Source of the DNA: Adhaeribacter terrigena
GTDB taxonomy: Bacteria > Bacteroidota > Bacteroidia > Cytophagales > Hymenobacteraceae
Assembly (NCBI RefSeq): GCF_016623615.1
Contig: NZ_JAEHFX010000003.1
Span: forward strand, 186,001-250,000
DNA length: 64,000 bases
Direction: 5' to 3'
Both the position numbers and the translations under genes were made by a program. Of this stretch, positions 3,189-63,958 are shown piece by piece. Each line of letters begins with the position of its first letter. Position 1 is the stretch's first letter. The notes below the pieces were generated by a model. That model was not told where the DNA came from and did not search any database. It saw only the letters and a program-made list of their open reading frames with translations.

Positions 3189-4721
3189 TTGAAAAAATAC
3201 CTTTTTACCTGTTTACTGACTTTTGCAGGCTTTTTCCCTACCGTTTTTGCTGCCACGCCCGATACCGTAGTAGTGGCCGGCAAACAATATGATCGTGGTT
3301 TTTTTCACCGGCTGTTTTGGGGTACACACTACCGTAAGGTTTGGGCAGAACCTGTTCGGGTACCTTTTCTTGATCTTAATACCCATGCCGGAGGCCTGAA
3401 ACCAACCGAAAAAGGCGGCTCCTTTCAAACGAAAAACCTGCGCCTGCTTAATCCTGACGGCCGGGAATACGTGATCCGGTCGGTAGATAAAGATGCCAGC
3501 CAAACGCTTTCGCCTGAAAAAAGAAAATCCATCATCGGCAAAGTGATCCGCGACCAGACCAGCGTTGTTCACCCATATGGAGCTATGATCGTGCCGCCGC
3601 TTGCTGCCGCCGCCGGGGTTTTTCATGCCAATCCGCAATTCTTCGTGGTGCCCAGCGATCCGGTTTTAGGAGAATTTCAGCAGGAATTTGCCAATATGCT
3701 GGTAATGGTTGAAGAAAGACCCGAAGGCAACTGGGAAAACAACCCGGATTTCGGGAATTCGAAAGAAGTGGTAAGCTCTAAAAAAGCCTTTACCCAACTA
3801 GTGAAAGAAAACAATAACCGGGTAGATGCGCACGCCTTTTTACGCGCCCGGCTTTTCGATATGTTCCTGGGCGATTGGAGCCGCCGCGAAGACCAGTGGC
3901 GATGGGCGACTTATAAATTACCCAACGGCGGTACTTATTACAAACCCATTCCGCGGGACCGCGACCACGCTTTTTTTAAATTTAACGATGGGGTAATTAC
4001 CTGGCTGGCTAGTTTATATGCGCGCAACATGCAGACTTTCGGCCCTAATATTAAAAACCTGAAAGGTCTGAATAGAACCGCGCAGCCTTTAGACCGGTCG
4101 CTGTTGCTGTATCTGACCAAAGCAGAATTCAGGCAAATCGGCGACAGCCTCAAAATAGCTTTAACCGATGCGGTTATTGAAAACGCGGTGCGCCAATGGC
4201 CGGAAAATATTTATAAAATTACAGGTAAAGAATTCGAAAAGAACCTAAAAAAACGGCGGGATCAGTTACCCAAAGTAGCGGAAAGATATTACCATATTTT
4301 AGCCAAAGAAGTAGAAATGCCGGGCAGCGATGAAAGTGAAATATTCCGGTTAACCGGCGCGAAAAAAAGCCTGCTGGTAGAAATGCTGAAACCAGGTAAA
4401 AAAGGCAAGCCCGATACTTTGCTTTACAGCCGTACCTATTATCCGAACGAAACCAAGAGCCTGAAAATTTATGGCCTTGGCGAAGAAGATACGTTTGAAT
4501 TTTTGGGCGAAGGCAACCCACTTAGAAAGCTGGAAATTTACGACGGGGAAGATGAAGACGAAATTATTTACAAATCGAAAAAAAATAAGCGCATCGATAT
4601 CCTGGATTCCGGCGACGGCAACAAAATTTCTGAAACCAAAAAACTGAAAGTGAAATTATACCAGCCAAAAGCCAATGAATTCGACGGAAAAGGCTGGCTG
4701 CTTCGGCACCGGCTGAATTAG
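3189..4721 (+). CDS. Secreted paralogue of the GDWDRH family with altered motif
   Basis: 510 aa. The frame must start at TTG 3189, because the next in-frame Met is around residue 133 and the TTG gives a good Sec signal peptide (residues 1-22, ending VFAA). The body matches the partial protein at 1-907 over its first 270 residues. In the key motif this copy has GDWSRREDQWRW (228-239), so the Asp and His of the paralogue's GDWDRH are replaced by Ser and Arg; PIPRDRDHAF (253-262) is kept. The C-terminal part (LKIYGLGEEDTFEFLGEG onward) resembles the linker that precedes a barrel in longer relatives, but no barrel follows. Function unknown; possibly an inactive partner of its paralogue. A TAGCG element (3218-3250) encodes the signal-peptide core. 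Confidence 0.85.
   Translation: MKKYLFTCLLTFAGFFPTVFAATPDTVVVAGKQYDRGFFHRLFWGTHYRKVWAEPVRVPFLDLNTHAGGLKPTEKGGSFQTKNLRLLNPDGREYVIRSVDKDASQTLSPEKRKSIIGKVIRDQTSVVHPYGAMIVPPLAAAAGVFHANPQFFVVPSDPVLGEFQQEFANMLVMVEERPEGNWENNPDFGNSKEVVSSKKAFTQLVKENNNRVDAHAFLRARLFDMFLGDWSRREDQWRWATYKLPNGGTYYKPIPRDRDHAFFKFNDGVITWLASLYARNMQTFGPNIKNLKGLNRTAQPLDRSLLLYLTKAEFRQIGDSLKIALTDAVIENAVRQWPENIYKITGKEFEKNLKKRRDQLPKVAERYYHILAKEVEMPGSDESEIFRLTGAKKSLLVEMLKPGKKGKPDTLLYSRTYYPNETKSLKIYGLGEEDTFEFLGEGNPLRKLEIYDGEDEDEIIYKSKKNKRIDILDSGDGNKISETKKLKVKLYQPKANEFDGKGWLLRHRLN
3218..3250 (+). repeat. TAGCG element encoding a signal-peptide core
   Basis: GACTTTTGCAGGC is followed by TTTTTCCCTACCGTTTTTGC. In frame this encodes residues 10-21 (around TFAGFFPTVFA), the hydrophobic core and cleavage region of the signal peptide of the gene at 3189. 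Confidence 0.75.
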
Positions 4722-5045
4722 AATTATTGAAATATTGAATGCGAGAATGATTGAATGAAATCTTTTTAGAATGTGAGAATAATAAACGGTAGGGTTTCGG
4801 GATGAAAAACTGTTGAAAAACGTAAACCAAAAACCCAAAACGCAGAAACAAGGCATTGCCTTTTCTCTACGCATTATATACACATATATTTTCAGGTCCG
4901 CATTTAAATAAAAAACGGTAGGCTTTTTTACGAAAAAGCCTACCGTTTTTTATTATTTAGATATAACTCGAAATTCAGAACATTTCACATTTTCTAATTC
5001 AATAATTCTGCCACGCTCTCATTCAATTATACCCGGATTCAATCA
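4722..5045. repeat. Convergent gene-end island with three TAGCG half or full copies
   Basis: This 324-bp gap lies between convergent genes. GAATG-type words on the left (4724-4757) are mirrored on the right (4993-5049) by CTCTCATTCAATT and CAATCATTAA. The right arm contains the stop codon of the exonuclease gene (5046-5048). Inside are a reverse TAGCG element at 4783-4811 and the perfect inverted pair at 4907-4954. No gene is apparent. Confidence 0.65.
4907..4954. terminator. Perfect 22-bp inverted pair of TAGCG cores, likely bidirectional terminator
   Basis: The left arm 4907-4928 and right arm 4933-4954 are exact reverse complements (AATAAAAAACGGTAGG plus CTTTTT on the left), with the loop TACG. 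A/T tracts at both ends give a U-run in either direction. It sits between convergent genes (3189-4721 plus and 5046-6443 minus), so a bidirectional intrinsic terminator is the natural reading. Confidence 0.75.
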
Positions 5046-6443
5046 TTAAAATATAATCACCTTATCGGCATTTTTGGTGCGCATGTGCTGCCGGATGATC
5101 TGTTGAATGTCTTTATTGTCGTTGTAGCGTTTAATGCCGTTTTTGAAGTCTTCAAGGTTACTGGCGCTGAACGTTTCGTCTACAAACCCAAAGCCTAAAT
5201 AACGCCCGTGCTCTACCACAATAACAGATCTTTCGCCGGCTTCGCGCCCTTTCCCGATGATCACAAAATTCTCGTGTTCATACGAAAAGGCTTCGATCGC
5301 TTTATCCACCCGTTCGTTATAACTTTCCGGGCTTTCCTTGCCGATACAAGCGCCTTTGCATTGGTGTACCTGGTAGTCAAAACACGAACCCGAGGATTTA
5401 TACAAATCGCATAGTTTCTGACAAAGCTGGTATTTCCCAATTACATGGTATAAAAATCCTTTGGCTTTGTAGTGGTTGCTCAAGGCAATGAGCGGAATTT
5501 TTTCGTCGTTAATGCGGCCGTAGCTTAAGCGTTTGTAGCCGTTCTTATCAGTTTCCACGAATATGCCCGTATTGAACACGCTGCGGCGTTGCTGCCGGTT
5601 ATAATACGGTTTCATCCGCTTTATTTCATCCGATTCGAATAGCAACGCTACCAGTTCATTGCCCATTAATTCATAAGTAATATCGGCGATCTGGTTTTTG
5701 AATTCGATGGATTTCTTGCTTTTATAATCGATGTTGAAATGCTGGATAATGCGCTTGCGGATATTGATGCTTTTGCCCACATAAATCACTTCGCCTTTTT
5801 CATCGTGGAAGTAATAAACGCCCGGCGCATCTGGCAACGCATCTACCTGTTCCTTTTTAATATTGGGTGGCAGCAGCGAGGTTTTTACTTCATTCTTCAG
5901 CGCTTTCTGGCTTTCCGAAACCACATCTTCACTCCCTGAAACTGCTTTCTCGTTCAGCTTGATCAGCTTATCGAAAAGTTTGGCCGTAGCTTCGGCGTCG
6001 CCGATCGCGCGGTGGCGCAATTCCAACGGAATGTCGATGCTTTTGCAAAGTTTCCCCAGGGAATAAGAAGGCAAGCCGGGAATCAGGCTGCGGCTCAAAC
6101 GAACGGTGCAAAGCGTTTTCCGCTGGTAGGTATAACCCAGGTCGGCAAATTCTTTTTTCACGAAGGAATAATCGAAACGCACGTTGTGGGCTACAAAAAT
6201 TTTGCCTTCGGTAAACTGCACGATTTCCTTCGCCACTTCGTGAAATTTGGGCGCATCCTTCACCATGTCGTCGGTAATGCCGGTGAGGTTGGAAATAAAA
6301 TAGGGAATGGGGCGCTGCGGATTTACGAGCGTATGAAACTTATCGGTGATCTTGTGGCCATCGTGAATAAAAATGGCGATCTCCGTAATACGGTCCTGCG
6401 CCGGCTGGCCGCCCGTAGTTTCAATATCAATTATGGCGTACAA
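5046..6443 (-). CDS. DEDDh 3'-5' exonuclease fused to GIY-YIG nuclease domain
   Basis: 465 aa from the TTG at 6443. Residues 1-160 are a DnaQ/PolC-epsilon-like exonuclease: D6 and E8 in DIETTG, D91 in NVRFD, H144 and D149 in HRAIGDAE, so all DEDDh residues are present. Residues ~203-285 are a GIY-YIG domain (GVYYF at 208, YVGKS at 221) as in UvrC and Cho. The C-terminal part has several Cys (CFDYQVHQCKGAC) as in the UvrC/Cho cysteine region. The role is probably DNA repair or exonucleolytic editing. The open frame continues to ATG 6641, but residues upstream of MYAIIDIETTGG are not family-like. TTG 6464 is an alternative, but it lies only 2 nt from a -7-like box (6467-6474), which favours 6443. 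Confidence 0.88.
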   Translation of the reverse strand: MYAIIDIETTGGQPAQDRITEIAIFIHDGHKITDKFHTLVNPQRPIPYFISNLTGITDDMVKDAPKFHEVAKEIVQFTEGKIFVAHNVRFDYSFVKKEFADLGYTYQRKTLCTVRLSRSLIPGLPSYSLGKLCKSIDIPLELRHRAIGDAEATAKLFDKLIKLNEKAVSGSEDVVSESQKALKNEVKTSLLPPNIKKEQVDALPDAPGVYYFHDEKGEVIYVGKSINIRKRIIQHFNIDYKSKKSIEFKNQIADITYELMGNELVALLFESDEIKRMKPYYNRQQRRSVFNTGIFVETDKNGYKRLSYGRINDEKIPLIALSNHYKAKGFLYHVIGKYQLCQKLCDLYKSSGSCFDYQVHQCKGACIGKESPESYNERVDKAIEAFSYEHENFVIIGKGREAGERSVIVVEHGRYLGFGFVDETFSASNLEDFKNGIKRYNDNKDIQQIIRQHMRTKNADKVIIF

Positions 6444-6466
6444 AGGAAGTTGGGTGCGTTTCAAGG

Positions 6467-24192: not shown

Positions 24193-24411
24193 TTACCGGA
24201 TCTGCCGGAACCGGAAACGGTCCCGGATGAAATGGTTAAAGAAACGACCGTGGGAAGGTGAATCCATTAAAGCGGTGTAAGCCTGCGGCGGGACTTCGAA
24301 ATATTGGTACACGTGGCCGTTATGAAATTCTACTTCCAGGGTGTTGGTATAAGGCTGGTATCGTACGCCTAAAAGATTCGACGATTGGATGTATTTACGT
24401 TCCATGGGCAT
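24193..24411 (-). CDS. KTSC-domain protein
   Basis: 72 aa. It matches the small KTSC domain (PF13619) in its VRYQPYTNTLEVEFHNGHVYQYFEVPPQAY and SPSHGRFFNHFIRDRF segments; the family's Lys-Thr-Ser-Cys tetrad is not strictly present (SSN and PSHG occur instead). The function is unknown; the domain is found alone or fused to lysyl-tRNA synthetase. The start may be Met1 (24411) or Met3 (24405). A 19-bp perfect inverted repeat begins on the first base of the start codon. Confidence 0.78.
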   Translation of the reverse strand: MPMERKYIQSSNLLGVRYQPYTNTLEVEFHNGHVYQYFEVPPQAYTALMDSPSHGRFFNHFIRDRFRFRQIR

Positions 24412-24458
24412 TAACAGTTAAAAGATAAAGCAAAGGCTGTTTATCTTTTAACTGTTAA
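24411..24458 (-). repeat. Perfect 19-bp inverted repeat at the KTSC start codon
   Basis: TTAACAGTTAAAAGATAAA (24411-24429) and its exact reverse complement (24440-24458), with the 10-nt loop GCAAAGGCTG. In the minus-strand transcript this hairpin would end on the A of the AUG, so it could sequester the start or terminate upstream transcription. Confidence 0.7.
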
Positions 24459-24997
24459 TTGTTTAAACGGTTATTTTTTTAGCTTTCTTCGGTTTTTCAG
24501 GAGCAAATCGGCCGAAGTCTGTTTTTTATAGAAATTAGAGAGGGAACTGTTGGGGAATTCAGTGTGGGAATCCAGCACTTTTTGGTCCATTTCAGATACC
24601 GTTTTTAGACAATATTAGGAGGGGTTTCCGGCCAAGAGAAGTTATAGACAACTATATCCGTTGATTAAGAGATATTTCTTTTGAACCGTTCTGCTGCATT
24701 TCTAATTAAAGAAATATGTTTAGCTGAACTTAACTTAGTTAATAATTCGGATAAACTCCTGATTTGCTAAAACCCTATTAAGCTTAATGTATTAATTCGA
24801 TTTTATTTTAATAAATTCTATTTCTATCCAATTCAAAGTGGAACGAATGGTAATTGGGCTTTTTTCCTGCCTAGGTTCGATTTTGCCAAATTATTTTAAG
24901 ATGCAGCACAAACTGTCAGAGCAATTAAGTTTCGTTTCATTTTCTCAGGCTTTAAATGGATTATATGTTTTCAGGCGTCTTCTTGGCGTTAAAAGGT
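24459..24997. other. AT-rich gap without a recognisable gene
   Basis: About 540 bp between the KTSC gene and the barrel gene (both minus strand). It contains one forward TAGCG element at 24576-24606 (GCACTTTTTGGTCC, then ATTTCAGATACCGTTTTT). The rest is AT-rich and stop-rich in all frames; nothing else is supportable. It may be the remains of a lost gene. Confidence 0.5.
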
Positions 24998-54904: not shown

Positions 54905-54980
54905 GACTTTTTGCTTTCAAAACGGTAGCGTTTTCAACTGAAAAAGTCTGAGAATGGTAGGGTTTTGAACCGAAAAAGTC
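54905..54980. repeat. Cluster of overlapping TAGCG elements in both orientations
   Basis: A forward copy 54905-54934 (GACTTTTTGCTTTC, then AAAACGGTAGCGTTTT) shares its palindromic core with a reverse copy 54919-54948 (tail CAACTGAAAAAGTC). A third, reverse copy lies at 54951-54980 (GAATGGTAGGGTTTTGAACC, then GAAAAAGTC). A partial core follows at 54983-55000. Confidence 0.8.
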
Positions 54981-63907: not shown

Positions 63908-63958
63908 CATAAAAAAACGCTATACTTTTCAGACCGAAAAGTATAGCGTTTTTTTATG
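63908..63958. terminator. Perfect 23-bp inverted pair of TAGCG cores, likely bidirectional terminator
   Basis: Left arm 63908-63930 and right arm 63936-63958 are exact reverse complements (right: GAAAAGTATAGCG, then TTTTTTTATG), loop AGACC. It lies between the receptor gene (+) and the 3' end of a minus-strand gene (63971), so it can stop both. Confidence 0.8.

Follow-up and report, generated by a model that had tools for sequence, protein, structure and literature searches.

The perfect inverted repeat at positions 4907-4954 of the window (the whole 64,000-nucleotide stretch of Adhaeribacter terrigena DNA that was analysed) is made of two copies of a dispersed motif of ~30 bp that face each other head-to-head and overlap. 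On balance we favour the explanation that this hairpin combines two opposed copies, overlapping each other, of a genus-specific sequence resembling an uptake signal. The motif behaved like an uptake sequence in nearly every sequence test run, which indicates that the analogy with Neisseria uptake sequences drawn in an earlier note on this DNA was largely right, and genome statistics give good support to the view that the motif would work like an uptake sequence.

The hairpin in the convergent gap

The two arms of the hairpin (4907-4928 and 4933-4954, 22 nt each) are 100% complementary and enclose the loop TACG, the letters of arm, loop and arm being AATAAAAAACGGTAGGCTTTTT, TACG and AAAAAGCCTACCGTTTTTTATT. 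The gap around the hairpin is convergent, with the stop of the forward gene at 4721 and the end of the reverse gene at 5046, and the hairpin starts ~186 nt beyond the stop of the forward gene and ends ~92 nt beyond that of the reverse gene. The arms and gene ends thus confirm the earlier description of a 22-bp inverted pair in a convergent gap with a 4-nt loop and no mismatch. The left gene (3189-4721, + strand, 510 aa) has no Pfam match, and many related loci have its homologues at this junction; the right gene (5046-6464, - strand) encodes a 3'-5' exonuclease (RNase_T) with a GIY-YIG nuclease domain and is 90% identical to its counterpart in Adhaeribacter soli. The hairpin was missing from the same junction in Adhaeribacter soli, and a few Pontibacter carry unrelated hairpins at the corresponding convergent junction.

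On each strand the stem consists of a GC core followed by T6, as in a bidirectional terminator. The predicted folding energy is -28.8 kcal/mol for either strand (z = -7.5 and -6.3 compared with shuffles) and none of the shuffles folded as well. A stable GC-containing stem and a T-tract downstream of genes, the features of an intrinsic (Rho-independent) terminator, are therefore both present, and the pair probably works as the predicted bidirectional terminator.

Within the hairpin two motif copies overlap, one forward (4912-4941, + strand, AAAACGGTAGGCTTTTTTACGAAAAAGCCT, 22.9 bits) and one reverse (4920-4949, - strand, 22.8 bits), and the inner T/A tracts are common to both. A single unpaired copy (4783-4812, + strand, AAACGGTAGGGTTTCGGGATGAAAAACTGT from 4784, 32.4 bits) lies in the same convergent gap. 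The core of the hairpin is CGGTAGGC/GCCTACCG. The TAGCG cores previously named for this site are ruled out, as the letters differ and TAGCG does not occur within 4907-4954. Given that, genome-wide, this motif family more often has the variant TAGCG/CGCTA, which is also present in a second hairpin of the same type at 63908-63958 (arms of 23 nt, core CGCTATAC/GTATAGCG, likewise in a convergent gap), the label was probably carried over from that variant. The hairpin at 4907-4954 represents a minority form, with a length of 36 nt, GGC cores and ~23 bits per copy.

Only three hairpins with perfect arms of at least 20 nt were found in the window, at 4907-4954, 24410-24459 and 63908-63958. The one at 24410-24459 is a 20-bp inverted repeat (ATTAACAGTTAAAAGATAAA, 10-nt loop) of low GC content that is unrelated to the motif. 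AT-rich degenerate repeats of the ATTGAATGnGAGAATG type flank the hairpin at 4720-4775 and 4985-5045 and match each other imperfectly as an inverted repeat (25 nt, 80%). The Adhaeribacter soli junction that carries no hairpin has a repeat of the GTCATCCCGAGC...GCTCGGAATGAC type just after 6401 of its locus, and GTCATCCCGA is over-represented in the genome of the window (22 versus 0.7).

A dispersed motif of about 30 bp

In the literature searched, uptake sequences are reported only from Pasteurellaceae and Neisseriaceae, two proteobacterial families using type IV pili. These sequences (USS and DUS) occur about once per kb without orientation bias, are spaced more regularly than random and form close opposed pairs; they also prefer noncoding DNA, have more perfect than one-mismatch copies and originate by substitution (PMC1626085). 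In the Pasteurellaceae USS two AT-rich segments lie 3' of the core (PMC1626085), and inverted pairs of uptake sequences have been described as terminators in permissive locations (PMC2397512, PMC5217627).

The motif statistics were obtained from 1.31-1.49 Mb of the 4.43 Mb genome (24 contigs) together with genome-wide pattern counts. In aligned k-mers the consensus reads AAAACG[C/G]TA[T/G][G/C][G/C]TTTTnRGCnnAAAAA[G/C]T, a sharply bounded unit of ~30 bp laid out as A-tract, CG[C/G]TA[T/G][G/C][G/C], T-tract, RGC, A-tract and [G/C]T. It is asymmetric, with the core AAAACGSTAKSS followed by a T-tract and then, about a helical turn further on, by an A-tract. The k-mers AAACGCTATG, AAACGGTAGG and their relatives were far over expectation in 1.49 Mb, and the 10-mer AAACGGTAGG, which is taken from the hairpin arm, occurs 477 times genome-wide compared with 23 times for the reversed control. 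A weight matrix, trained on the same sequences that it scored, found 1,252 copies of at least 12 bits in 1.31 Mb, whereas Markov shuffles gave 15 and the reversed sequence 24. The density is thus about one per kb (0.93-0.96 per kb), and extrapolation from 1.31 Mb gives a total of ~4,200 copies per genome.

The fixed pattern AAACGSTAN14AAAAST, which is independent of the matrix, was found 2,225 times genome-wide and never in the reversed control, and its copies were evenly oriented (1,109 forward and 1,116 reverse). A strand-biased motif of the Chi or KOPS type was rejected, as there was no consistent strand bias either by window or by gene. When scored over 14 key positions, perfect copies (658) outnumbered those with one mismatch (357) and with two (262).

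Location and spacing of the copies

Based on our own gene calls, 794 copies were intergenic and 461 coding, corresponding to 4.24 per kb in noncoding and 0.41 per kb in coding sequence, i.e. a 10-fold intergenic enrichment with many copies nevertheless located within genes. Convergent gaps held 1.31 copies each, tandem gaps 0.71 and divergent gaps 0.77. The coding copies were oriented with the gene in 241 cases and against it in 220; they were concentrated toward both gene ends and sat in less conserved protein segments (37% versus 63% identity to outgroups).

The mean spacing was 1,041 bp, or 1,294 bp once close pairs were collapsed. Spacing was modestly more regular than random (CV 0.92 versus 0.98, sd 0.03), and 5.9% of the intervals exceeded 3 kb compared with 10.6% in the matched null. 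Motif deserts of 11-18 kb lie over ribosomal protein and respiratory operons. A prophage or foreign origin of the deserts was rejected: given that the largest are a respiratory (NrfD/COX1) operon and a ribosomal protein operon, constraint rather than foreign DNA explains them. The sole desert with the look of acquired DNA is that of the large RHS/LRR-type genes at C18 ~454-468 kb. In this region, C18 ~456-466.5 kb is motif-free, of low GC content (0.36) and filled with very large genes, including one for a DUF5977 protein; the LRR/RHS protein encoded there ends in a Tae4-type amidase domain and is likely a secreted antibacterial effector.

These properties can also be read in terms of a site inside the cell, bound by a genus-restricted nucleoid- or chromosome-organising protein, with phased A-tracts bending the DNA and the pairs at gene ends being a by-product or insulator-terminators. 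This reading would accommodate the asymmetry of the site, its three A/T tracts spaced by about a helical turn, the near-palindromic core with its 94 symmetric double sites and the somewhat more even spacing, but it seems unlikely to us, since the motif carries 28.3 bits of information, far above the 11.0 bits that would suffice to locate ~4,200 sites, its perfect copies exceed the near-miss copies, unlike ordinary intracellular sites, and the deserts cover the ribosomal protein and respiratory operons. Such an excess of information is hard to account for by an ordinary intracellular binding protein and therefore favours an uptake sequence.

Occurrence in relatives and uptake machinery

The motif was over-represented in the single genome of the same genus that was found (the sister genome), which has 158 copies of the strict form and ~0.5 copies per kb by the matrix, and not in other genera. 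All other genomes were at chance, with 0-3 strict copies each in a 200-genome sample of the family and a 118-genome sample of the order, and the motif is, as judged from these samples, genus-specific. In a different family member with 60% GC, the word ACCTAGGG was over-represented (41 versus 1.1 expected in 60 kb) and could be another dispersed motif.

ComEC and DprA are encoded in the genome of the window and, given that every relative tested has them too, they do not discriminate; the DUF1343/NamZ_N family is likewise present in the genome and in all relatives tested. In the same genome a type IV pilus secretin (PF00263) was not found, no protein matched the PilB/PilT-type ATPase (PF00437) above the family cut-off, and a DUF5689 protein resembling the transformation protein of Riemerella was not found. 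Because the secretin/PilB/PilT machine is the known partner of USS and DUS and is absent here, membership in the pilus-based USS/DUS system is not claimed. The sister has a locus with a secretin and a T2SS/pilus-type ATPase (its C7 ~24-27 kb), which the genome of the window is without.

The motif of the sister is eroded, with 18.6 bits of information and 16 perfect, 78 one-mismatch and 115 two-mismatch copies. Together with the lack of pilus genes in the genome of the window, this would suit an uptake motif of the genus ancestor that is now a relic, kept in hairpins for transcription termination. We regard this as improbable, as the motif is uneroded in the genome of the window (658 perfect against 357 one-mismatch copies), which indicates that a maintaining force acted recently.

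Opposed pairs and their predicted terminator role

Closely spaced opposed pairs are frequent. In 1.31 Mb we found 94 '-+' pairs, which have a palindromic core in common and whose centres lie exactly 13 bp from each other, and 17 hairpin-type '+-' pairs with centres 9-11 bp apart, the type to which 4907-4954 belongs. An example of the former type in the window lies at 54905-54948, with the shared palindromic core AAAACGGTAGCGTTTT, centres 13 bp apart and A/T tracts on both outer sides. By strict definition there are 34 hairpin pairs genome-wide, 30 of which are exactly 37 nt long; the sister has 7 such pairs and seven other genomes have none. The proposal that the core is a genome-wide word whose inverted pairs form terminator-like hairpins, by the same logic as in Neisseria and Haemophilus, was borne out by the count of pairs at the different junctions: in the 1.31 Mb sample hairpin pairs were found in 8 of 136 convergent gaps (at least 40 bp) compared with 7 of 658 others (Fisher's Exact Test, p = 0.0013), and in 0 of 152 divergent gaps.

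The perfection of the two arms had been taken in the earlier note to imply recent duplication or gene conversion between them. This does not hold as stated, given that identical cores are typical of the class, being present in 25 of the 34 pairs, whereas 2.7% would be expected for two random copies. The core variant ending in TAC occurs in 33 of 68 hairpin arms and in 26 of 1,255 copies overall. TAC is common in the arms because its complement GTA completes AAAAGT, the end of the A-tract of the opposing copy. This suggests that two complete copies are favoured beyond the stem itself, and speaks against an ordinary single site having simply been copied into both arms; selection for a good stem and for two overlapping copies, each complete, accounts for the arms better.

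It is very improbable that the hairpin is an ordinary bidirectional intrinsic terminator and nothing else, its likeness to the dispersed word being incidental. The GC core, the perfect stem, the T6 on both sides and the convergent gap are all as expected of such a terminator, but the recurrence of hairpins of the same word and spacing across this genome and the sister, and not in the seven others, together with the 23 bits that both arms score against the genome-wide motif, already refutes the incidental part. A terminator confined to this single locus was likewise rejected, as the word is found genome-wide. The terminator role of the hairpin can coexist with the explanation by an uptake sequence.

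Origin of the copies

Coding copies could be aligned without gaps to the sister genome (~80% identity) in 36 of 42 cases and to outgroups in 21 of 24, which suggests that the copies arose mostly by substitution in place. The orthologous positions in the sister also retain motif score, with 33 of 42 reaching at least 12 bits versus 32% in a neutral simulation, and by this rough test, in which codon constraint is ignored, many of the sites would be ancestral and maintained.

That a replicating repeat such as REP/RAYT or a MITE inserted itself across the genome, its inverted pairs giving the hairpins, is scarcely credible: the very strong consensus and the sudden appearance in one genus would fit, but the REP/RAYT or insertion origin is rejected, and already largely refuted, by the ungapped alignments and by the lack of any match to the Y1/RAYT transposase (PF01797) in the genome, whereas such matches were present in each of the 11 other genomes tested, and the 30 bp are sharply bounded with no larger surrounding repeat.

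Discussion

According to the explanation that we favour, in which the motif resembles an uptake signal, an apparatus for DNA uptake at the cell surface would prefer DNA that bears the motif, and since the DNA taken up would recombine into the chromosome, the motif would accumulate through biased transformation (molecular drive); its copies are located mainly where they are least harmful. Two copies placed head-to-head just past converging genes would form a perfect stem bordered on each strand by T-tracts, and such a pair may be kept because it would also stop transcription arriving from either side.

Several observations speak against the uptake reading. The secretin, the PilB/PilT-type ATPase and DUF5689 are missing from the genome, and the sister, which has a secretin and an ATPase, has the more eroded motif. 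Furthermore, the motif is more extended than the USS and DUS cores, and its near-palindromic core would also suit a dimeric intracellular protein. The absence of the hairpin from the same junction in Adhaeribacter soli counts against the explanation of the hairpin itself.

We see about an even chance that the motif represents a third, independently evolved uptake-sequence system, located in the Bacteroidota and working without a type IV pilus secretin, in which a genus-specific 30-bp tag of self-DNA is present in ~4,000 copies and its inverted, overlapping pairs double as bidirectional terminators. No established case of uptake sequences in Bacteroidota was found in the open-licence literature searched, which is weak evidence of absence. 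A third case, in another phylum and without pilus genes, would if true mean that uptake sequences arise repeatedly, and the genus, with the motif intact in one species and eroded in another, would provide an independent replicate for the debate on drive versus function. The 30-bp sequence could also serve as bait, providing a handle on the outer-membrane DNA receptor of Bacteroidota.

Comparison with known systems

The REP elements mobilised by RAYT (Y1) resemble the motif in that their short copies lie between genes, number in the hundreds to thousands and in some cases form inverted pairs. They differ in that the genome studied here is without a Y1 transposase, the copies arose by substitution, occur also within genes, and the motif itself forms no hairpin.

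Riemerella, which shows that Bacteroidota can transform without pili (PMC8459023, PMC7965970), belongs to the same phylum and likewise has ComEC and DprA, with a competence that is pilus-less (PMC7965970, PMC8459023). R. columbina prefers its own DNA, and the top k-mers reported are A/T runs with no defined motif (PMC7965970, PMC8459023); no convincing uptake sequence has been reported there, and the DUF5689 protein of Riemerella is absent here.

The Neisseria DUS is 10-12 bp long, unrelated in sequence and without flanking tracts, and its pilus-based uptake is experimentally proven, whereas an uptake role of the present motif is predicted. The two agree in density, in the preference for intergenic DNA and permissive regions and in inverted pairs that act, here by prediction, as Rho-independent terminators, and the composite spacing is ~1.3 kb here versus ~1.5 kb for DUS (PMC2397512).

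The USS of Haemophilus influenzae and other Pasteurellaceae is unrelated in sequence (AAGTGCGGT versus AAAACGSTA here) and belongs to a different phylum, and the type IV pilus secretin and ATPase were not found here; the present motif is also longer, and 14 bp past its core comes another highly conserved block (AAAAAST). The likeness to the USS nevertheless extends to a density of ~1 per kb without orientation bias, a noncoding preference, a pair of AT tracts following the core at a distance of ~11-12 bp from each other, an excess of perfect over one-mismatch copies, an origin by substitution and inverted pairs forming terminators, the last of these predicted here from the stem and T-tracts (PMC1626085, PMC7811141, PMC5217627).
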